DNA of 35,903 nucleotides, taken from the NCBI GenBank assembly GCA_011525665.1, contig WYAU01000099.1:1-35903 (forward strand). Direction: 5' to 3'. The notes beneath the pieces were generated by a model. It was not told the DNA's origin, searched no databases, and saw nothing but the letters and a program-made list of their open reading frames with translations. Below are positions 1 to 27,998 of the stretch, one piece after another (within the stretch, counting starts at the first letter, position 1; every line of letters starts with the position of its first letter). The translations under genes were made by a program, and so were the position numbers. The stretch comes from Candidatus Brocadia sp. GTDB lineage: Bacteria > Planctomycetota > Brocadiia > Brocadiales > Brocadiaceae.

Positions 1-122
1 CCTGATAAAGTTTATAATCTTGGCAAATTGCGTTTAATACACGACAATGATATCACATAACTTATTGATAATCAAGATGATATACTGTATTTTGGTGTAC
101 TTTTCTTAACTTAATGACATTG

Positions 123-453
123 GTTTGCAACTTGAACCCAGAGGTTTGATTCGACCGCCGGTTTGAATTCCTGATGTTATTAGCTGACAAACTACGGGGT
201 TCAGGTTTGAATGAGTGAGTGAACCCGCCTGAACCTGTGAATTTTACTGAACAATAGTGTTATGCCGTCTATAAGAATTTCAAAAGAATTTACGTCAGGA
301 ATTTATTACCTTACTTTCACCGTCAAGAACTAGTACTATCTTTTTGACAGGCACAACCGCTTTGAAATTCTTGCGGACTCATTACAATACTGTCAAAAAC
401 ACAAAGGACTTAAGCTATATGCGTATAAAATATTCAGGTTCAAGTTGCAAACT
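123..453. repeat. Inverted repeat flanking a dead Y1 transposase, with REP-like hairpin
   Basis: GTTTGCAACTTGAACC at 123-138 is the exact reverse complement of 438-453, so the transposase remnant at 262-432 sits between 16-bp inverted arms. Inside, GGTTCAGG (198-205) pairs with CCTGAACC (228-235) to make an 8-bp stem of REP type. Such flanking palindromes are typical of REP-associated tyrosine transposases. The pairing is read directly; the link to transposition is inferred. Confidence 0.6.
262..432 (+). pseudogene. REP-associated (Y1/HUH) transposase, N-terminal remnant
   Basis: Reading from ATG 262 gives MPSIRISKEFTSGIYYLTF, then a TAG at 331-333, then YYLFDRHNRFEILADSLQY and KGLKLYAY before similarity ends near 432. 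The family usually has 'T..vk.w..lFdr..r..il.dsL.yc.......l.aYviMpNHiH' here, so the TAG most likely replaces a Trp codon. The HUH histidines and the catalytic tyrosine are missing: only the first ~57 residues of a ~170-residue protein remain. It lies between the two arms of an inverted repeat and is clearly dead. Recognition rests on the family pattern and was not checked by a search. Confidence 0.65.
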
Positions 454-17137: not shown

Positions 17138-17689
17138 TCAAGATTTGAAAGGACGCCGGGAATCCATGTGCAGTCTCGACTTAATTACAATCCTGGCGCA
17201 AGCTTCGGCATCAGACAAAGCATCATGGTGCTTCAGGGGAATACCAAGAAACGTGCAAACACTGGGCAAATTTGCATGACGGAGATTCCATGTCTTGCGG
17301 GCAAGCCGTACCGTGCAGTGAAACGGCAGTACCGGTGGCGGCAGGGCAGCGGTTTGGCAGCATGCCATAAAGACTGAATGGTCGAAGGCTGCATTATGTG
17401 CCGCAATAAATTCGGCACCTGCAAGTTTCTCAGTTATATGCGGCCACAGTTCACTGAATGTAGGCTCATTGGCAACGTGTTTCCATGAAATTCCGTGGAG
17501 ATACGTAAACATAAACGTACGGCGTGGCGGGCGGATGAGGAAGTGCGCCTTATCAACGATCCGGTTGTTCAACACCCTGACCAATGCAACCGAACAGGCG
17601 CTGTCACGGCCATAATCTGCAGTCTCGAAATCGATGGCAACAAAGCAGTCATTGGTGTCCGGACTATTTACTGCTTTTTTAATACTCAT
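17138..17689 (-). CDS. DnaQ-like 3'-5' exonuclease
   Basis: 183-residue single-domain DEDDh exonuclease resembling the epsilon subunit of DNA polymerase III. Exo I is FVAIDFETADYG (Asp and Glu), Exo II is FIAAHNAAFDHSVF (Asp), and Exo III is HHDALSDAEACARI (His and Asp). No BRCT or polymerase domain is attached. Such stand-alone proteins are common in bacteria and may trim DNA or RNA ends in repair. The start at ATG 17689 gives a short lead of about 15 residues before Exo I. It is isolated on the minus strand, with no obvious partner. Confidence 0.85.
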   Translation of the reverse strand: MSIKKAVNSPDTNDCFVAIDFETADYGRDSACSVALVRVLNNRIVDKAHFLIRPPRRTFMFTYLHGISWKHVANEPTFSELWPHITEKLAGAEFIAAHNAAFDHSVFMACCQTAALPPPVLPFHCTVRLARKTWNLRHANLPSVCTFLGIPLKHHDALSDAEACARIVIKSRLHMDSRRPFKS

Positions 17690-18150
17690 AGTTCGTTATG
17701 TTAAACAATTTTCACTATCCGCCTAACAATCATACCCGGCATTAACCTCGCATACCAGGAAAGGCACAACGCCAATAATATGAATTATTACTACTATTAT
17801 TGAATACTTTGTTCAGGAGAGTCAAGAATTATATAAAATGCGGAATCGAGAAATCAGTCGAACGATGAAGGGGAGATAAAAAACTTCCTAATAAAAGAGG
17901 TTTTTACGGGTCAATACTCTCAATATCGTTTCATGAAAAGCCATACACCCTTTTGTCATTGCGAGCAATAGCGAAGCAATCTCAAGCCTTTTTATACAAC
18001 TGCTCCTTGCAATGATATTTTTTTCTGTGTTTACCTTTTTATGGAACGCTATACTATATTGTTGTAATGTGGCAATTATGCCAATAGATTTTCTGCGATT
18101 CACGCAGTTAAAAGATGTTTTTCAAAAAGCTAAATTGTTACGAATTATTT
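17690..18150. other. Repeat-bearing intergenic region before dinB
   Basis: Contains two dispersed elements. At 17858-17908 there is GAACGATGAAGGGGAGATAA followed by an AAAAAC...GTTTTT hairpin, like the composite repeat near 4756. At 17955-18016 there is an inverted element beginning GTCATTGCGAGCAATAGCG and ending TGCTCCTTGCAATGAT, like the widespread 'TCATTGCGAGGAGC...GAAGCAATCTC' family. No gene is seen. Confidence 0.55.
17955..18016. repeat. Dispersed 'TCATTGCGAG...GAAGCAATCTC' palindromic repeat
   Basis: The left end TCATTGCGAGCAATAGCGAA is imperfectly mirrored by the right end TGCTCCTTGCAATGA. The sequence resembles an interspersed palindrome seen in many unrelated bacterial genomes. Single copy in this window. 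Confidence 0.55.
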
Positions 18151-18734
18151 ATGAGACGGATTCTTCATGCAGATATGGATGCGTTTTTTGCAGCGATTGA
18201 GCAGCAGAGACACCCGGAGCTGAAGGGCAAGCCCCTGGTAATCGGTGACAGCGGAGACCCCAGAAAGATGGATTTGGTATCAACTGCATCCTATGAGGCC
18301 AGAAAATTTGGGATCTATTTTAAGATGCCATTAAAGACAGCACGTGAGTTATGTCCCCATGCCGTCTTTCTCCCCGCAGATCATAAGGAATACGAAAAGG
18401 TCTCGAAAAGGATAAAAGATATTCTGGGAAAATTCTGTCCCATTATGGAAGATGCTGGCATCGATGAGGCCTTTCTTGATATATCGCGCATAGACAAACC
18501 GGTGGAGGAGATTGCAAGAGAGATCAAGAAGATGATTCTGAATGAAACAGGCATTTCCTGTTCTATTGGCATAGCCCCCAACAAACTCCTTGCAAAGATG
18601 GCCTGGATAAACTTTCTGAAAAATTTGGGAAGTCTCAGGGTAGATATCTCTACGAGGCGTCGAGGGGAGTAGATGAGAGTCCTCTTATTACTACCCACCG
18701 TAAAACAAAATCTATCAGAAAAGAAAATACGTAG
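18151..18734 (+). pseudogene. dinB: DNA polymerase IV, internally deleted and frameshifted
   Basis: The Y-family N-terminus is good: RILHADMDAFFAAIEQ, then DEAFLDIS with catalytic acids, then SCSIGIAPNKLLAKMA. At about 18600 the frame switches. The continuation that makes sense lies in another frame from about 18603: KLSEKFGKSQGRYLYEASRG, then DESPLITTHRKTKSIRKENT, ending at TAG 18732-18734. That is the beginning of the little-finger domain (the family has 'G..LY..A.GiDdSPv.p.r..KSi..E.TF'). The rest of the palm and the thumb, roughly 70-90 residues, and the C-terminal half of the little finger are missing. The result is a dead gene with an out-of-frame internal deletion plus a 3' truncation. 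Confidence 0.82.
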
Positions 18735-18855: not shown

Positions 18856-18883
18856 GTAGGGGCGTATTGCAATACGCCCCTAC
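18856..18883. repeat. Perfect 28-bp palindrome
   Basis: GTAGGGGCGTATTG is followed directly by its reverse complement CAATACGCCCCTAC, with no loop. It belongs to the 'GTAGGGGCGTATTGCAATACGCCC' class of dispersed palindromes seen in several phyla. Confidence 0.7.
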
Positions 18884-19084
18884 TGAAAAAACCTTGGCAA
18901 AGAAAAGAAATTTAAGCTATAAATTGACCAGCTTAAACTCATTATCTTATGAAGAACAAAATAATACCTACCTTCCTTAATATAATCCTCTGTTGATGGT
19001 AAAGATGAAAAACCGTTCTGAGTTACAGTTGTCATTTCAAGAAGAATTATTGAAATCTGACAGATTAAAACAAACTTACAAATT

Positions 19085-19097
19085 TAACCTTAAAGGT
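19085..19097. promoter_or_regulatory. Possible operator of the HigBA-like unit
   Basis: TTAACCTTAAAGGTTAA is a near-perfect inverted repeat with half-site AACCTT, about 60-70 bp before the toxin start. HigA-type antitoxins bind such repeats to repress their own operon. Only position and symmetry support this. Confidence 0.4.
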
Positions 19098-19158
19098 TAA
19101 ATTTATCTTGCTAATATTTATACATCCATATAAAATTAAAAAAGGATGCGTTAGCAAT

Positions 19159-19470
19159 TTGCAGATAGAATTTAAAAACAGGCATATTGCCCAACTGTAT
19201 CAAGAAGGTAAAAGTAGAAAATATCCACTTCCCCACGAAATCCTTTCAAAATTTTTTATGAGAATACAACAGTTGGAAGCCGCAGTTGATATACACGATT
19301 TATGGAAGACGCCCTCACTGAATTTTGAGAAATTAAGAGGTTTTGAAAATAGGTATTCTTTACGGTTGGATAGGAAATGGAGATTGGAATTAGAAGTCAA
19401 TTGGGAAGACAAAGAAAAGACGAAGGGGATAGTTTATATTATAGAGCTTTCCAAGCATTATGAGGCGTAG
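19159..19470 (+). CDS. higB: HigB-like RelE-superfamily toxin
   Basis: About 103 residues, the size of plasmid-maintenance killer proteins. It begins with the family pattern FKNRHIAQLYQEG, carries LEAAVDIHDLWKTPSLNFEKL and the central RYSLRLDRKWRLEL block, and ends IIELSKHYEA ('v.i.dysKHY' in HigB). These toxins cut mRNA at the ribosome. The start is uncertain: TTG 19159 gives a normal N-terminus (MQIEFKN) and has AAAGGATG upstream; the frame stays open to TTG 19108. It overlaps nothing, but the antitoxin starts only two bases after its stop, in the usual HigB-then-HigA order. Confidence 0.82.
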   Translation: MQIEFKNRHIAQLYQEGKSRKYPLPHEILSKFFMRIQQLEAAVDIHDLWKTPSLNFEKLRGFENRYSLRLDRKWRLELEVNWEDKEKTKGIVYIIELSKHYEA

Positions 19471-19472
19471 TT

Positions 19473-20621
19473 ATGGTAATGAAATATAAACCATTTTTAA
19501 ATATAGGCCCGGGAGAATTCATTAAAGAGGAATTAGAGGCACGGAACTGGAGACAGGAAGACCTGGCAGAGATATTAGGCATATCGTTGAAATCAGTTAA
19601 TAAACTCATCATGAATAAACAGTCCATAACGATCGAAACAGCCCGTCTCCTCAGTAAGGCGTTTGGTCAATCGCCTCAATACTGGATGAATCTCGATACC
19701 AATTATAGATTGAGTTTACAAACCGAGAGCTCAAAAGAAAAAGAGGTAGAAATCAAATCTGATATATACAAACACATGCCTGTTAAAGAAATGATAAAAA
19801 AGGGATGGATAAAACTGCCTAAAACCATTGACGATTTAATACACGAAATAAAACTATTTTGGGGGATTTCAAATTTGGATTTTTCTTTCCTGGAGAAAAA
19901 ACCAGCCCTAAACTTCAGGAAATCAGAGGCATTTGACCACTATTTTGACCACTATAATGCATATTATGCCATTACCTGGTTCAGGATGGCTCAAAGATGT
20001 GCTAAAAAATATCAGTTAAATCAATATGCAAAAGACGAATTGGAAAAACTCGCTAAAGGTCTTTCTAGCTATACAACCCTAGAAAATGGTATTGAAATAT
20101 TCTTGAGAAAGTTAAATAAAATTGGCGTGAAATTTTTTGTCTTAAGCCATCTCCAGAAAACCTATATTGATGGGGCATCATTTTTCGATGATTCAAATCC
20201 GGTCATCGTTTATACAGCAAGGCACAACAGGACGGACAATTTCTGGTTTACCATCGCCCATGAAATAGCCCACGTTATATTGCATCTAAAGACGAAAGAA
20301 GACTATTTTATCGACTGTCTGGACGATCTTTCGACACGGCAGGAAGATGCCGCAAACAAATTTGCAGAAAAGACATTAAAGATCCATGAAATCCTGGAAT
20401 ATTTCAGCCCATACAAAAAATATATATCAAGAGACAGAGTTATAAAATGCGCCCAGGAAATAAAGGTGAGCCCTGCCATCGTAGTTGGCGTATTACAGCA
20501 TCACGACATCCTTTTACGAAGAAATCTCAATGAGTTCAAACATACCGTTCCAGAACTTATACCACAGGAATATTTAGCAGAGAAAAATATTAATAAAATA
20601 CAGATAATTTCATATGGCTAA
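19473..20621 (+). CDS. higA: HigA-type antitoxin fused to an ImmA/IrrE-like metallopeptidase
   Basis: 382 residues. N-terminal XRE/HigA helix-turn-helix (~12-75: GPGEFIKEELEARNWRQEDL, SVNKLIMNKQSITIETARLL, FGQSPQYWMNLD), an approximately 100-residue helical middle, then a ZincIn metallopeptidase with IAHEIAHVILH (HEIAH at 263-267) and a downstream acidic stretch EDAANKFAEK typical of ImmA/IrrE (third ligand). The HTH should repress the operon and neutralise HigB. The peptidase may cleave this or another regulator in response to damage, as ImmA does for ImmR. It follows higB after two bases (GAGG upstream as ribosome-binding site) and overlaps the NTPase gene by eight bases, so the three are probably co-transcribed and coupled. 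Confidence 0.88.
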   Translation: MVMKYKPFLNIGPGEFIKEELEARNWRQEDLAEILGISLKSVNKLIMNKQSITIETARLLSKAFGQSPQYWMNLDTNYRLSLQTESSKEKEVEIKSDIYKHMPVKEMIKKGWIKLPKTIDDLIHEIKLFWGISNLDFSFLEKKPALNFRKSEAFDHYFDHYNAYYAITWFRMAQRCAKKYQLNQYAKDELEKLAKGLSSYTTLENGIEIFLRKLNKIGVKFFVLSHLQKTYIDGASFFDDSNPVIVYTARHNRTDNFWFTIAHEIAHVILHLKTKEDYFIDCLDDLSTRQEDAANKFAEKTLKIHEILEYFSPYKKYISRDRVIKCAQEIKVSPAIVVGVLQHHDILLRRNLNEFKHTVPELIPQEYLAEKNINKIQIISYG

Positions 20622-23600
20622 AGATGTTAAACCAATTTACAATTGGAAACGGTTCTGGTGCCCCAGGACAGGTAGCTTCGATCTGTCTGATGGTGGATAT
20701 CTTACTAACCCAGATTCAGAGTGGGGTCACCTGTATAATCCCGATGTCAAATCGTTTGAGTCTATAACCACAATTCCATGCTTAATACTGCTTGGTGAGC
20801 CGGGAATTGGTAAATCTCAGGCCATGCAAACAGCACAAAATGCAATCTATGACAAGATAAAGGAAGTGGGTGATCAGATACTATGTTTAGATCTTCGTTC
20901 ATATGGAAGTGAGGATAGATTGATTCGTAATCTATTTGAAAACCCAACCTTCCTTTCCTGGGCAAGAGAAAAACATCGTCTCCACGTTTTTCTCGATAGT
21001 TTGGATGAGTGCCTGTTACGGATAGATACCCTTGCAGCACTTTTAGTTGACGAATTTAAGAAATATTCCGTTGATCACCTGTATCTTCGTATTGCTTGCC
21101 GAACGGCAGACTGGCCAACCAGCCTTGAAAACGGATTAAAACAACTATGGGGTGAAGACGCAGTGGGAGTATATGAATTGACTCCGTTACGTCGAGTAGA
21201 TGTAATTGAAGCAGCAACGACAAACAATTTAGACCACAACGTTTTCCTACAAGAAATTGACCAAAAAGAAGTTGTTCCATTAGCTATTAAACCAGTCACC
21301 CTTAGCTTTCTTATAAAAACTTATATTAAGAATGGCCGATTCCCTTCAACCCAAGCAGAATTATATTTGCAAGGTTGTCATAAACTTTGTGAAGAAACAA
21401 ATAAGCACCGACGTGATGCACGACTTATCGGCTCTTTTACTCCTGAGCAACGCTTAGCTATGGCATCACGTATCGCCGCTGTAACAATCTTTTCTAATAA
21501 GTATGCTGTCTGGACTGACATTGATCGTGGAAGTGTTCCTGATGAAGATACAACAATTCAAGAGGTATGTGGTGGAAGTGAGGATGCCGATGGTATGCAA
21601 TTCCAAGTAACTGAGATTGCCGTCAGAGAAACACTTGGTACTGGACTATTTTCATTGCGTGGACCAAACCGTATGGGATGGGCGCATCAGACCTATGCTG
21701 AGTTTCTTGCAGCCAGGTATTTAGCAAAGCACCAAATGACACTTACACAAATCATGGGTCTATTAATTCATCAAGGAGATGGTGAGGCAAAGCTTGTTCC
21801 TCAACTCCATGAAACTGCAGCCTGGTTAGCTGGTATGATGCCAGAAGTTTTTAGAAAAATCACGAGTGTAAATCCTGAAGTATTACTCCGAAGTGATATA
21901 GCAACAGCCGAGTTAAAGGACCGGGCTGCCTTAGTAGAGAGTTTACTTAAGACATACGATGAAGGAGGATTAATGGATCGTGATTGGAATAATCAAAAAC
22001 GGTATAAAAGACTTTATCATCCTGGCTTGGCTGACCAGCTTCGACCATACATTTGTGATGGTACCAAAGGTATTATTGTACGACGAGTGGCAATCAAAAT
22101 TGCTGAGGCCTGTGAATTGCAAACACTTCAAGATGCTCTCGCAAATATAGCCCTCAATCAAAAAGAGCCATTGCCAATCAGGAATGCAGCTGCTTATGCT
22201 GTAGGACGTATTGCTGATGACAACACAAAAGTAAAACTGAAACCATTAGCTACTGGTGAAGCAGGGGAAGATCCCAATGACGAATTGAAGGGTTGCAGCC
22301 TTAGGGCGCTATGGCCTGATCATATGAAGGTTGAAGAATTGTTTACTGCAATAACTAATATTAAACAGGAAAATTACATAGGTGTATATTGGATGTTCCT
22401 ATCACATGAACTTGTACCAAAACTCAAACCATCCGATCTTCCAGTAGCATTAAAATGGGTAGAACAACAGGAATCTCTAAAGGATTCAACGTACTGTTTT
22501 GAAAAACTGATGGATGCTATTATATTGAAGGCATGGGAACACCTTGACTCTCCAGCAATACTGGAAGCTTTTTCAAAAATAGCTCTAGCTCGTTTAAAGC
22601 ATCATGGTGGGATCGTGGGACATGATACCGAAAATGAATTCAGAAATATTTTGAGTAATGAGGACAACAAACGTCATAAGATATTGGAAGTAATACTTCT
22701 CTTAATTTCTGATATTAAAAAAGATACAGGATGCTTAATTAACTCTTCAACACCACTAGTATTAAGTAAAGATGTGATATGGATGCTTGAACGCCTTCAG
22801 GAAGAAAAATCAAAAGAGATGCAGTTAATATGGGCAAAATTAATAAATCGAGCCTTTGACTGGCGTGAGTCTGATCAGCTTGATGCCATTATTGATACAA
22901 GCAAAAGCAATCCCATCCTTGCCGAAACATTTTCATGGCTTTTGAAACCAGTTGAACTAAATTCACCTGAAGCAGAAAAAATGAGAGCTGATTATTTAGA
23001 AATACAAAAATGGCAAAAACGTGATAAAGAACGACCTCTTTTAAACCCACCCCCTGCAGAAAGAATTGCTGGACTTTTAGATGAATGTGAATCTGGTAAT
23101 TCTTTTGCATGGTGGTGTTTAAACATGGACATGACACTTGAACCAGACAGCAGATTTTACGGAAGTGACTATGAGTCAGACCTAACAGCCCTTCCCGGAT
23201 GGAAAAATGCTGATGTTGTAACCAGACATCGGATTGTTGATGCTGCTAAAAGGTATGTATTGGAACAAAACCCGAAGACGCATGATTGGTTAGGCAAGGA
23301 TATCATACATCGCCCGGCGTTTGCGGGATATGGGGCACTGCAATTGTTATTGCAAGAAATTCCTGATTTTATTTCCTCTCTCCCTGCTGATGTATGGAAA
23401 AAGTGGGCGCCAATCATTCTTGCTTATCCTGTATCAAATAGTGGCAATAATAACAAAAATATCGAAATTCATAATAAACTAATAAAATTATCATATCAGC
23501 ATGCTCCCGGTGAGATTATACAAACTATGACAGTCATGATTGATAATGAGAATAAGGCTCATAGCCGTATTTATATTACTCACAAGGTTAAGGATTGTTG

Positions 23601-24855
23601 GGACAGCCGTTTGGCAAATGCCTTATTAATTAAAGTAAAAGACGAGAATCTGAAACCAGAGTGTATGGGTTGTTTGCTCGGTGATCTTCTTGATCATGGC
23701 GTTACAGAAGCTAGAACATTCGCAGAATCACTTGTTTCTTTAGCATCCACTTCCAGCGAAATTGACCGATCTAGGGCAATTGTTGCAGCACGTGAACTGA
23801 TGACTCATACAGAAGATGGTGGTTGGTTGGTTGTATGGCCTGCTATTCAACAGGATACTGAATTTGGTCGTAAAGTAATCGAATTATTAGCATATGACAG
23901 TGACGCATTTGCAGCAAATGCTGGAAAACTACTTGCCGAGAATCAATTAGCCGACCTGTATATCTGGATCGTTCACCAGTATCCGCACGCTGAAGACCCT
24001 AATTATAATGATGAAGATTGCTGGGTAGGATACATGTTGAAGATTGCCAGTTTTAGAGATTCGCTTTTAAATCTTATCAAACAACGAGGTACTCCTAAAG
24101 CATGCGAGGCAATCCAGCAAATTCTAAACGAATTTCCTGAATCAAACTGGCTGAAATGGGTATTGCATGAAGCTCAAGATAATACACGTCGTCTAACATG
24201 GGTACAACCCAAGCCGGTTGAAATTCTCAAAATGGCTGGCAATCAATTGATACGTTTGGTTCAAAATGGTGATCAGCTACTCGAAGTATTAATTGAATCT
24301 CTGAAACAGTTGGAGGGAAAGCTTCAGGGTGAAACTCCAGCGGCAATTGATTTATGGAATGAGATTGAGACGAATGTATTTAGGCCAAAAGATGAAAATA
24401 GATTTTCTGACTATGTAAAGAGACACTTAGATGAGGATCTCAAAAAAAGAGGGGTTGTTGTTAATCGTGAAGTTGAAATTCGTCGCGGTGAAGGAGCAGG
24501 ACAAGGTGAAAGGACAGATATACTCGTTGATGCTATTATGCGAAAACAAAACAAAGAAGTTTATGATTCTGTAACTGTAATTGTCGAGGTAAAAGGGTGT
24601 TGGAATCCAGAGTTGAATCACGCAATGAAAATACAGTTGATGGATCGCTATCTTAAAGATAATCACTGCCAACATGGTTTATACCTGGTTGGCTGGTTTA
24701 ATTGTAACCAATGGGATAATAAAGATTCCAGGAAACAACGATCTCCAAAAATCAACATTGATGAAGCAAGAAAGCAATTCGATAAACGAGCAACTGAATT
24801 ATCCCAACAAAGTACCAGGATTAAGGCGTTTGTCATAAACACTGCACTTCGTTAA
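20614..24855 (+). CDS. NACHT/STAND-type NTPase with HEAT-like repeats and C-terminal nuclease-like domain
   Basis: 1413 residues, recognised by architecture rather than as a named family. The P-loop is LLGEPGIGKS (Walker A ~61-68), Walker B VFLDSLDEC (~125-133), and sensor region RIACRTADWP (~159-168), all of NACHT form. A long helical region (~370-1200) contains HEAT-like segments (IVRRVAIKIAEACEL, PIRNAAAYAVGRIADD). The C-terminus has RTDILVDA (D1302), then VIVEVKG (E1325, K1327) and Q1341, a D-x(n)-ExK...Q pattern of PD-(D/E)XK nucleases. Such proteins are typical phage sensors whose effector acts after NTP-driven assembly. It overlaps the antitoxin gene by eight bases with no ribosome-binding site of its own, so translation is probably coupled to the antitoxin. 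Function is inferred from domains. Confidence 0.72.
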   Translation: MAKDVKPIYNWKRFWCPRTGSFDLSDGGYLTNPDSEWGHLYNPDVKSFESITTIPCLILLGEPGIGKSQAMQTAQNAIYDKIKEVGDQILCLDLRSYGSEDRLIRNLFENPTFLSWAREKHRLHVFLDSLDECLLRIDTLAALLVDEFKKYSVDHLYLRIACRTADWPTSLENGLKQLWGEDAVGVYELTPLRRVDVIEAATTNNLDHNVFLQEIDQKEVVPLAIKPVTLSFLIKTYIKNGRFPSTQAELYLQGCHKLCEETNKHRRDARLIGSFTPEQRLAMASRIAAVTIFSNKYAVWTDIDRGSVPDEDTTIQEVCGGSEDADGMQFQVTEIAVRETLGTGLFSLRGPNRMGWAHQTYAEFLAARYLAKHQMTLTQIMGLLIHQGDGEAKLVPQLHETAAWLAGMMPEVFRKITSVNPEVLLRSDIATAELKDRAALVESLLKTYDEGGLMDRDWNNQKRYKRLYHPGLADQLRPYICDGTKGIIVRRVAIKIAEACELQTLQDALANIALNQKEPLPIRNAAAYAVGRIADDNTKVKLKPLATGEAGEDPNDELKGCSLRALWPDHMKVEELFTAITNIKQENYIGVYWMFLSHELVPKLKPSDLPVALKWVEQQESLKDSTYCFEKLMDAIILKAWEHLDSPAILEAFSKIALARLKHHGGIVGHDTENEFRNILSNEDNKRHKILEVILLLISDIKKDTGCLINSSTPLVLSKDVIWMLERLQEEKSKEMQLIWAKLINRAFDWRESDQLDAIIDTSKSNPILAETFSWLLKPVELNSPEAEKMRADYLEIQKWQKRDKERPLLNPPPAERIAGLLDECESGNSFAWWCLNMDMTLEPDSRFYGSDYESDLTALPGWKNADVVTRHRIVDAAKRYVLEQNPKTHDWLGKDIIHRPAFAGYGALQLLLQEIPDFISSLPADVWKKWAPIILAYPVSNSGNNNKNIEIHNKLIKLSYQHAPGEIIQTMTVMIDNENKAHSRIYITHKVKDCWDSRLANALLIKVKDENLKPECMGCLLGDLLDHGVTEARTFAESLVSLASTSSEIDRSRAIVAARELMTHTEDGGWLVVWPAIQQDTEFGRKVIELLAYDSDAFAANAGKLLAENQLADLYIWIVHQYPHAEDPNYNDEDCWVGYMLKIASFRDSLLNLIKQRGTPKACEAIQQILNEFPESNWLKWVLHEAQDNTRRLTWVQPKPVEILKMAGNQLIRLVQNGDQLLEVLIESLKQLEGKLQGETPAAIDLWNEIETNVFRPKDENRFSDYVKRHLDEDLKKRGVVVNREVEIRRGEGAGQGERTDILVDAIMRKQNKEVYDSVTVIVEVKGCWNPELNHAMKIQLMDRYLKDNHCQHGLYLVGWFNCNQWDNKDSRKQRSPKINIDEARKQFDKRATELSQQSTRIKAFVINTALR

Positions 24856-25134
24856 CGTTATTCCTTAATTTATTGTTTGGATGCGATTTTAATGATCTTT
24901 ACCAAAACTTGTCTATATTTTAAAGCAGAAACCAAAAAAGAAAAAAACATATGAGCAAAAAGTCCTTAAGAACAGCTAAAATAGGCTGGTTAAGATATGA
25001 AAAACAGCAGAAATATGTTTAACAACAAATCGTATTTTTGCACAGTCTTTATGTATCATTTATCCATACCGTAGGGACACGGTGCTCCGTGTCCCTACAT
25101 CGGCATATCGGCATAACGGTATAATCGGGAAAAA
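24856..25134. other. Intergenic region with REP palindrome
   Basis: About 280 AT-rich bases with no gene. The palindrome at 25071-25098 lies 36 bp before a HUH transposase pseudogene that carries the same palindrome inside its coding sequence. Confidence 0.5.
25071..25098. repeat. REP palindrome upstream of the transposase
   Basis: GTAGGGACACGG is joined by TGCT to CCGTGTCCCTAC, a perfect 12-bp stem. The same arms, with a TGCA centre, occur at 25410-25435 inside the transposase gene. Confidence 0.75.
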
Positions 25135-25709
25135 ATGACATACGACCCAGACAAACACCACCGACGGTCAATCCGATTAAAGGAATATGATTATTCCCGG
25201 GCGGGCGCATATTTCATAACAATATGTACGTACAACAAAGAATGTATTTTTGAAAATGTGACAAACAGCGAGATGCAACTAAATGAATACGGGGTAATTG
25301 TTGAAAACGAATGGGTAAAAACGGCGGAAATACGCCCAAATGTTATAATAGATAAATACATTGTGATACCGAATCACTTACATGGCGTAATCATAATTTT
25401 GGATGATGATAGGGACACGGTGCACCGTGTCCCTACATTTGAACAATTTGGCAGACCGACATCCAATTCCATCCCAACGTAATAAGGTCGTTCAAGGCAG
25501 TAACAAAAAAACGGATTAATGAAACCCGGAAATCCTATGGCAAAACAGTATGGCAACCCCGATTTTATGAACATATTATCCGAAATAAAGATGAACTAGA
25601 CAAAATCAGGCAATATATTATCGACAATCCCTTACAATGGGAATTTGGTAAGGAAAATCCCGATAACACAAAATGGGAAGAAGGAAAATGGATAAAAACG
25701 CAGTTTTAG
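25135..25709 (+). pseudogene. REP-associated HUH/Y1 transposase, frameshifted
   Basis: Single-strand transposase of the REP-associated tyrosine transposase family (about 190 residues if repaired). The first part (25135-25482) has the family start SIRLKEYDYSRAGAYFITIC and the HUH pair in IPNHLHGVIII. It stops at TAA 25480-25482. The second part in the -1 frame (from about 25482) continues IRSFKAVTKKRINETR, then WQPRFYEHIIRNKDEL with the presumed catalytic Tyr, and ends at TAG 25707-25709. Adding one base between 25479 and 25480 restores PTIIRSF, as in relatives, so one deleted base explains the break. HUH and Tyr are now in separate frames, so it is inactive. Confidence 0.85.
25410..25435. repeat. 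REP palindrome embedded in transposase coding sequence
   Basis: TAGGGACACGGTG and its exact complement CACCGTGTCCCTA form a 26-bp perfect palindrome. It encodes the RDTVHRVP segment, which corresponds to the 'RGTaRRAPT' segment common in this transposase family. The same arms form the intergenic palindrome at 25071-25098. Confidence 0.75.
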
Positions 25710-26435: not shown

Positions 26436-26456
26436 ACAAAATAATCAAAAGTGCCC

Positions 26457-27998
26457 ATGCTAAAGATAAAAGTTAAACCAGAAGATTTTATTGTGGAAGA
26501 GGTAGCAGACCTTCCATTACAAAAAGACGGAAATTTTCGCGTCTATCTCCTCAGAAAAAGGGGATGGAATACCGTTGACATCTTAAAGATGCTTTCCAGG
26601 AAGTTCAGCATACCGTACTCGTATTTTTCCTATGGCGGCAAAAAGGATAAATATGCCTTAACATCTCAGTACATAACCATCGCACGGCAGATTATCCCCG
26701 CTTCGCAAGGAAGGGACTTCGTCGCGATGGTTCGCCAGTCTCACCATGAACGTCGCCACATCCTGAGCTTGCCGAAGGATCAGTCGAACGATAAAGGGGG
26801 AGTAAAAAAACCCTGGATCAAGCCTCCGAATCCACGGTTCCTAACAAAAGATAAAGCAGTAACATCAAATTCACTGCATGAATATCCTGTCCCGACAAAG
26901 GTAGACGGGGAAAACTATTCCCTGAGCTTTGTGGGTTATATGGACAGGCCCATGGGACCCGACCTCATAACGGGGAACAAATTTCAAATTGTTGTCAGGA
27001 ATCTTGCAGAAAATGATTTAACGTCAGCATTACATGAGATTGACCGTGTAAAACAGGACGGTTACCCTAACTATTTCGATGATCAGCGATTTGGCAGTTT
27101 TGATGCCCGTCAGGGATTTATCGCCGAAAAGATTCTGAAGAAACACTATAACGGGGCATTAAAGATATATTTTTCCAGCATCCATCCGGAGGACAGTAAA
27201 GAAGAAAAGGATCACAGAAAATTCTTTTATGAAAACTGGGGTAACTGGCAAGAGTGTCTAAAAGGAGCCACGAGCAAGTTTGAAAAAGAAACGTTCAGAT
27301 ACCTGGAGAAGCATCCGAAGGGATTTATTCCCATTCTTCAAAGGATATCCCATGAAAAAATGGTACTCTTTTTTTCTGCATATCAATCACACATTTGGAA
27401 TGAAGTTTTACGGAAAATTATTCGATCAGTCAGCAACGATGGTTTCATGTCAGGGACTTCCAAAACGATCAATTCCTCCCACTTGCCTGTCCTCAGTAAA
27501 ACCGAAGGGATGGGGGAGGTTGAGTGGAGAGAAAAAAAGAATCACCCTCCCCTATCCCCTCGTTCGACTGAGCGCTCACGACGAAGTCCCATCAAGGAAG
27601 GGGAGATTAGCTGCCGAAGGCATGATTTAAAAATTTCTAAGGGGATTGCTGGCGATTATGTATTTTATACGCAGTTAGATGACAGGAGTAAAGCGTATTT
27701 AAACACGTTAGTCATTCCCATGCCCGCATCCAATATCAGGATGCCCGACGATTTTACAAAAAACCTTTATGCAGAGGTGTTAAAGGAAAACAACTTAAAG
27801 TCCCCCATGTTCAATATACGAAAATTGCGACAGGCATTTTTCAAGGGTATTGAAAGGAAGGCAATAATCACTCCTGAAGACCTTTCGGTTGATTATGCTG
27901 AAGATGAAATTTATCAGGGCAAGAAAAAGTTGATCTTCAAATTCTTCCTGCCGAGGGGATGTTACGGCACCATGTTTATCAAGAGATTGTTCTGCTGA
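26457..27998 (+). CDS. truD: tRNA pseudouridine(13) synthase TruD with two internal insertions
   Basis: Isomerises U13 of tRNA-Glu to pseudouridine. Family blocks: KVKPEDFIVEE near the N-terminus, GGKKDKYALTSQY with the catalytic Asp at ~64, ENYSLSFVGYMDRPMGPDL, GNKFQIVVRNL, GYPNYFDDQRFGSF, FFSAYQSHIWNEVLRKI and the C-terminal TLVIPMPASN. It is 513 residues; E. coli TruD has 349. Much of the surplus lies in two low-complexity stretches, about residues 79-150 and 320-390, whose DNA matches dispersed repeats. The frame is kept through both, and all catalytic blocks are intact, so the enzyme may still work. ATG 26457 is preferred; GTG 26451 in frame is possible. Confidence 0.88.
   Translation: MLKIKVKPEDFIVEEVADLPLQKDGNFRVYLLRKRGWNTVDILKMLSRKFSIPYSYFSYGGKKDKYALTSQYITIARQIIPASQGRDFVAMVRQSHHERRHILSLPKDQSNDKGGVKKPWIKPPNPRFLTKDKAVTSNSLHEYPVPTKVDGENYSLSFVGYMDRPMGPDLITGNKFQIVVRNLAENDLTSALHEIDRVKQDGYPNYFDDQRFGSFDARQGFIAEKILKKHYNGALKIYFSSIHPEDSKEEKDHRKFFYENWGNWQECLKGATSKFEKETFRYLEKHPKGFIPILQRISHEKMVLFFSAYQSHIWNEVLRKIIRSVSNDGFMSGTSKTINSSHLPVLSKTEGMGEVEWREKKNHPPLSPRSTERSRRSPIKEGEISCRRHDLKISKGIAGDYVFYTQLDDRSKAYLNTLVIPMPASNIRMPDDFTKNLYAEVLKENNLKSPMFNIRKLRQAFFKGIERKAIITPEDLSVDYAEDEIYQGKKKLIFKFFLPRGCYGTMFIKRLFC
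26698..26910. repeat. In-frame repeat insertion 1 in truD
   Basis: Contains TCCTGAGCTTGCCGAAGGAT (26760-26779), CAGTCGAACGATAAAGGGGG and AGTAAAAAAACC, which match repeat pieces in the intergenic DNA at 18789-18810, 17858-17890 and 4745-4762. It sits between YITIARQI and ENYSLSFVG, which are adjacent or nearly so in typical TruD proteins. Confidence 0.6.
27415..27630. repeat. In-frame repeat insertion 2 in truD
   Basis: Contains CTGTCCTCAGTAAAACCGAA, ATCACCCTCCCCTATCCCCT, CGTTCGACTGAGCGCTCACG and AAGGAAGGGGAGATTA. The CCTCCCC-TATCCCC...GGAAGGGGAG build is that of the kbl and 4709-4760 elements; the TTCGACTGAGC part is a second common palindromic unit. It lies between WNEVLRKII and HDLKISKG. 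Confidence 0.6.

Follow-up and report, generated by a model that had tools for sequence, protein, structure and literature searches.

A HigB/HigA-M78 toxin-antitoxin pair ahead of an EruA-like NACHT NTPase gene at a RAYT/REP-bounded defence hotspot in Candidatus Brocadia

Introduction

Three genes follow one another on the same strand of contig C99 from a 3.6-Mb, 99.9% complete genome of Candidatus Brocadia, encoding a HigB-like toxin, a HigA-type HTH protein fused to an M78 (ImmA/IrrE-like) peptidase (hereafter HigA-M78) and an NTPase of the NACHT type. The question that they raise is whether such tight packing reflects one dedicated immune system or the meeting of modules that are inherited separately. 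The initial annotation of the 35,903-nucleotide stretch analysed here (the window) proposed the former, describing a three-part set not known among the named systems in which toxin and nuclease would act as successive effectors. As a combination the trio is indeed new, while its first two genes resemble PD-lambda-2 A/B (Vassallo et al. 2022, PMC9519451). PD-lambda-2 shares the gene order found here, with a HigB-like gene, a HigA-HTH/M78-peptidase fusion and then a third gene; that third gene is Beta-type (Beta/P4-antitoxin-related), whereas here it encodes a predicted NACHT nuclease. Assignment of the three genes to PD-lambda-2 was consequently rejected, the third gene product being no Beta protein. 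Elsewhere in the host genome, contig C30 (L129:3146-5721) carries a HigA-M78-like gene beside a Beta protein, with PADLOC matches to PD-Lambda-2 B (E 7e-93) and C (E 2e-59).

Results

Table 1. Coordinates of the features discussed, as positions in the window unless stated otherwise.
Feature	Coordinates	Strand	Evidence or remarks
HigB-like toxin gene	19159..19470	+	PF05015 HigB-like_toxin, E 2.1e-7, above gathering score
HigA-type HTH fused to M78 (ImmA/IrrE-like) peptidase	19473..20621	+	HTH_3, Peptidase_M78, TIGR02607, PADLOC PD-Lambda-2_B
EruA-like NACHT protein, 1413 aa	20614..24855	+	NF058535 EruA, E 1e-86; models, fold searches, conservation
NACHT region (predicted)	NTPase residues ~40-370		Walker A GEPGIGKS, residues 61-68, 20794-20817
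C-terminal PD-(D/E)XK nuclease (predicted)			D1302, 24517-24519; E1325, 24586-24588; K1327, 24592-24594
Candidate HigA operator	19080..19104		palindrome AAATTTAACCTT-A-AAGGTTAAATTT; arms 12 bp; family core motif
Accessory insert relative to Brocadia G004	18949..24934		blastn of window against L241: homology ends 18948, returns 24935
RNase T-type exonuclease gene, left flank	17138..17689	-	PF00929, E 2e-16; flank common to relatives
Truncated dinB, left flank	18115..18672	+	IMS domain, E 1e-47; flank common to G009 and G004
Degraded RAYT transposase (ORF 25135-25482) with REP-like repeats, right boundary	25066..25691	+	DNA identity
truD, right flank	26451..27998	+	PF01142, E 3e-64; flank common to G009 and G004

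Re-examination of the sequence reproduced the three open reading frames, the 2-base gap between the HigB-like stop (19470) and the fusion start (19473), the 8-base overlap of the NTPase ATG (20614) with the end of the fusion (20621), and the HEIAH, Walker A and ExK motifs, all as annotated initially. The longest higB frame opens at TTG 19108; TTG 19159 is preferred, with AAGGA ~12 nt upstream. No Shine-Dalgarno-like sequence was found upstream of the NTPase ATG. Given this and the overlap, translation of the NTPase is probably coupled to the upstream HigA-M78 gene and thereby tied to its transcript, in line with the translation-coupled unit first suggested. The overlap itself is not conserved, since in Brocadia G002 the NTPase begins 2 nt past the HigA stop. 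Promoter and terminator scans at the locus returned scores no better than those of shuffles, and the NTPase gene may yet have a promoter of its own. GC3 is 0.38 in the toxin-antitoxin (TA) pair against 0.30 in the NTPase gene, a difference that hints faintly at a separate origin, with which it would be compatible.

The fusion protein matches HTH_3 (E 5e-12) and Peptidase_M78 (E 1e-10) and exceeds the TIGR02607 antidote_HigA cut-off (52.8 bits against 47.7). Its PADLOC match is PD-Lambda-2_B (PDLC03982, E 1.8e-48), with weaker matches to capP and capH. The peptidase motif HEIAH occupies residues 263-267 (20259-20273), and HExxH is kept in 88 of 88 non-redundant relatives. Together with the match of the first gene, these results bear out the annotated TA pair, which shares with type II HigBA systems both a HigA-family antitoxin and a candidate operator palindrome before the toxin gene. 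In PD-lambda-2, it is the HigA-peptidase protein that is the toxic partner and the HigB-like protein that rescues (PMC9519451). Because of this precedent, the roles of HigB-like protein and HigA-M78 may here be swapped relative to their naming; of the proposal that the HTH-peptidase holds the toxin in check, the pairing itself stands and the direction may be the reverse.

The candidate operator lies 54 bp before the higB start. Its arms were matched in 0 of 500 dinucleotide shuffles, and it contains a perfect copy of the core motif TWACCT-N3-AGGTWA. Of 82 non-redundant family loci, 26 have the exact motif close to the start of higB, often as two copies ~57 bp apart, compared with 3 occurrences in the remaining 814 kb; with up to two mismatches allowed it is found in 50 of the 82 loci versus 8 of 782 random segments. 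As the motif was derived from the same loci in which it was later counted, these figures are descriptive and do not constitute an independent test, although the excess over background is very large. Of eleven plasmid relatives examined subsequently, most carry other palindromes, for example TTACAC-N3-GTGTAA, and only two come within two mismatches of the core motif; the exact motif is not universal in the HigB-HigA-M78 family. The one other site in the host genome, located within a coding ORF, was not considered further. The presence of the motif before higB supports autorepression by HigA-M78, and hence speaks in favour of the HTH protein repressing the operon, as had been proposed.

In the NTPase, G61, G64, G66 and K67 of Walker A and D128 and D131 of Walker B are invariant among 63 full-length homologues. 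The residues D1302, E1325, K1327 and Q1341 are kept in 46-49 of the 63, the others having different or truncated C-termini. A PDB sequence search with profiles of both domains yielded nothing useful, so that fold comparison was required. AlphaFold models were built from family alignments for residues 1-430 and for the last 214 residues. The first (pLDDT 91.7) best matches NOD2 (E 4e-11), NLRP3, NLRC4 and Avs4 (E 4e-8). For the second (pLDDT 87.3), Foldseek by itself returned nothing below E 0.001; PD-(D/E)XK restriction enzymes dominate the matches obtained (BamHI Z 9.5, McrC ~8), and the modelled C-terminus has the fold and the D...ExK residues of this class. Models and conserved residues thus support a NACHT fold combined with a C-terminal PD-(D/E)XK nuclease fold, in line with the NACHT-type NTPase-nuclease of the initial annotation. 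The middle ~800 residues we take, by analogy with other STAND proteins, to have a sensor role.

According to NCBIfam the NTPase is an EruA/HyoA-like NACHT antiphage protein (NF058535, NF058534), homologous to EruA over nearly its full length. With 292 bits against a curated equivalog cut-off of 1000, it is a homologue of EruA and not an equivalog. PADLOC returned no match for the NTPase, and no relatives of it were found in viral contigs and phage records. None of the papers searched describes the antiphage EruA or HyoA, and the EruA named in them is a regulator from E. coli with no relation to it.

Just three genes, those for HigB, HigA-M78 and the NTPase, make up the insert relative to G004. 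To its left, the truncated dinB lacks, at 18604, a stretch of 165 bp that is present there in G004 and G009; a perfect 14-bp inverted repeat (GTAGGGGCGTATTG/CAATACGCCCCTAC, 18856-18883) is also located just left of the operon. To its right, the degraded RAYT region shares 83-91% DNA identity with RAYT regions of G001, G006, G008 and G009, and the intact copy in L130 matches Y1_Tnp. REP-like repeats at 25071-25100 and 25410-25439, one of them inside the RAYT frame, are multicopy in several Brocadia genomes, and REP copies abound along the right edge. The accessory island with pseudogenes and repeats that was originally described is supported by these features.

Comparison of Brocadia genomes revealed different cargo between related flanks. 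At the window's own site, with exonuclease/dinB on the left and RAYT/urea transporter/truD on the right, G009 has a single PifA-like KAP NTPase (E 5e-100). Between the same flanks in G004 are a 387-aa ORF, presumably transposase-like, CARF-like and ORC-CDC6-like fragments, and a Thy1 gene. A second site, flanked to the left by genes for a K+ channel and/or HD-domain proteins and to the right by RAYT, keeps a HigA tail followed by differing cargo: an EruA-like NACHT gene in G002, a gene for a 1263-aa PD-Lambda-4_A-like protein (E 8e-28) in G001 and, in a row in G008, genes for a DNA methyltransferase, an ORC-CDC6-like ATPase and a CARF-like protein (L235:4083-8476). The ORC-CDC6-like and CARF-like fragments of the G004 slot are of the same types as the last two of this row. 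On host contig C64, a PifA-like NTPase likewise occurs together with an HD gene and two copies of RAYT. The locus in the window, bounded by RAYT and REP elements, is a defence hotspot with cargo exchange among Brocadia genomes. We infer that this exchange is RAYT-driven or REP-mediated; no excision product was seen at the hotspot.

A genome-wide scan collected 80 loci with NTPase relatives, distributed over Cyanobacteriota, Bacillota, Bacteroidota, Planctomycetota, Pseudomonadota, Actinomycetota, archaea and others. Searching with the HigA-M78 protein placed it directly upstream in one of the 80, that of G002. At this locus residues 290-382 are all that is left of HigA-M78 (78% identity), neither HigB nor the HTH has survived, and the NTPase is divided between two contigs at ~residue 370. 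No conserved upstream partner of the NTPase was found among these loci. In seven cyanobacterial loci (L050, L055, L061, L070, L071, L072, L091) the NTPase relative is directly followed by a gene of 80-85 aa and one of 121-135 aa, which resemble a VapB/VapC (PIN) pair.

Conversely, a set of ~90 HigB-HigA-M78 modules found in viral contigs and in Planctomycetota was examined together with 14 plasmid loci. Nearly all have a HigB-like gene upstream, whereas the genes downstream vary and in no case encode an EruA-like NTPase. The closest relative (L133, 44% identity) has no same-strand gene within 400 bp downstream. Some modules adjoin defence genes: genes for type III methyltransferases lie 9 and 20 bp away, one for a type I specificity subunit overlaps by 7 bp, and one for a TPR-PIN protein is at a distance of 207 bp, while a further module lies next to a Fic gene within a type I restriction-modification neighbourhood. 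A recurrent three-gene set is formed in 13 loci by a conserved ~160-aa gene after HigB-HigA-M78 (L134:2853-3338; also L135, L136, L161, L201, L219, L220, L221, L222, L247, L249, L253 and L258); two members tested had no Pfam or PADLOC match, and several of these modules have the palindrome TTACAC-N3-GTGTAA instead.

Discussion

The NTPase normally occurs without the TA pair and the pair normally without the NTPase, and the single adjacency elsewhere is the decayed G002 locus. This co-occurrence pattern largely contradicts the conserved three-part system of the initial annotation. We consider it reasonably probable that a single operon within a mobile-element-bounded hotspot combines two defence modules, each inherited separately, and that the HigA-M78 repressor sets the level of a self-sufficient NACHT nuclease. 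The modules are regarded as separate because relatives of the NTPase occur in many phyla without the TA pair, and TA modules have varied neighbours.

The first module would be an autoregulated HigB/HigA-M78 TA pair similar in type to PD-lambda-2 A/B, and its HigA part would bind the palindrome and repress the operon. A suggestive parallel is CapH+CapP, in which the repressor of a neighbouring immune operon is cut by a protease that responds to ssDNA (PMC13373217). There, as here, an HTH repressor and an M78-type peptidase are encoded upstream of an immune gene; HTH and peptidase are separate genes in that system, whereas here they form one ORF with a HigB toxin gene ahead. By this analogy the fused M78 peptidase would be a likely off-switch under stress, akin to a single-chain CapH+CapP. 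The second module would be an EruA-like NACHT sensor that acts alone and is inactive at rest. On phage activation it would recognise an invader component through its middle region and oligomerise, which would in turn activate the C-terminal PD-(D/E)XK nuclease to cleave DNA. The predicted NACHT fold is common to Avs and other STAND/NLR-like immune NTPases, with Avs4, NOD2 and NLRP3 as structural matches, and what sets the present protein apart from these is the predicted nuclease at its C-terminus. As translation of the NTPase appears to depend on the HigA-M78 transcript, the repressor probably also sets the NTPase level through coupled translation. Any such control over cargo would be lost in G001, G002 and G008, where only a remnant of the HigA tail is left.

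It is tempting to speculate further that HigB/HigA-M78 is a portable, toxin-armed, protease-gated controller with a conserved operator, serving any immune gene behind it (NACHT or other STAND, restriction-modification, Fic, TPR-PIN), and that this immune gene is swapped at the Brocadia RAYT/REP slot; derepression in the window would then release toxin and NACHT nuclease together. We put this forward tentatively, as a rather unlikely generalization.

Might the two modules be mere neighbours, side by side in a hotspot with no regulatory or functional link? They are usually found apart, the overlap is not kept in G002 and the hotspot swaps its cargo; nevertheless, the NTPase gene overlaps HigA-M78, lacks its own ribosome-binding site and is not set off from it by a terminator-like site, and we judge simple juxtaposition unlikely. 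The same tight packing, with the 8-bp overlap and the missing ribosome-binding site, could be read in the opposite direction, as one dedicated system of three components, with the HTH-peptidase keeping the toxin in check until a phage or damage trigger releases toxin and NACHT nuclease as successive effectors. It would fit that the insert relative to G004 comprises precisely these genes, and that a PD-lambda-2 TA pair can need a third gene for defence (PMC9519451). Against this, the intact trio occurs in no other genome among the surveyed loci, the sole sister adjacency lacks HigB and most of HigA, and other cargo occupies the position behind the HigA tail; a dedicated system is therefore improbable.

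An addiction guard, whereby the TA pair would kill cells that lose the locus and so retain the NACHT gene and its island, draws on the annotation of plasmid relatives as plasmid-maintenance or addiction modules and on the recurrence of HigB-HigA-M78 directly beside large defence genes. Yet the pair has decayed in three sister genomes while the cargo stayed or changed, and we find this the least probable of the explanations.

Taken together, named relatives exist for every part of this locus, and its novelty lies in the combination, in the family operator and in the exchange of cargo behind the HigA tail. Should the NACHT gene indeed be under the control of the HigA-M78 operator, as the preferred reading of two stacked modules supposes, a PD-lambda-2-type TA pair would be linked to NLR-like immunity, and the locus would offer a concrete example of a CapH/CapP-like controller in fused form that can be put to the test. 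Furthermore, the operator motif opens much of the HigB-HigA-M78 family to testing at once, and the hotspot illustrates how defence genes are exchanged in anammox bacteria.
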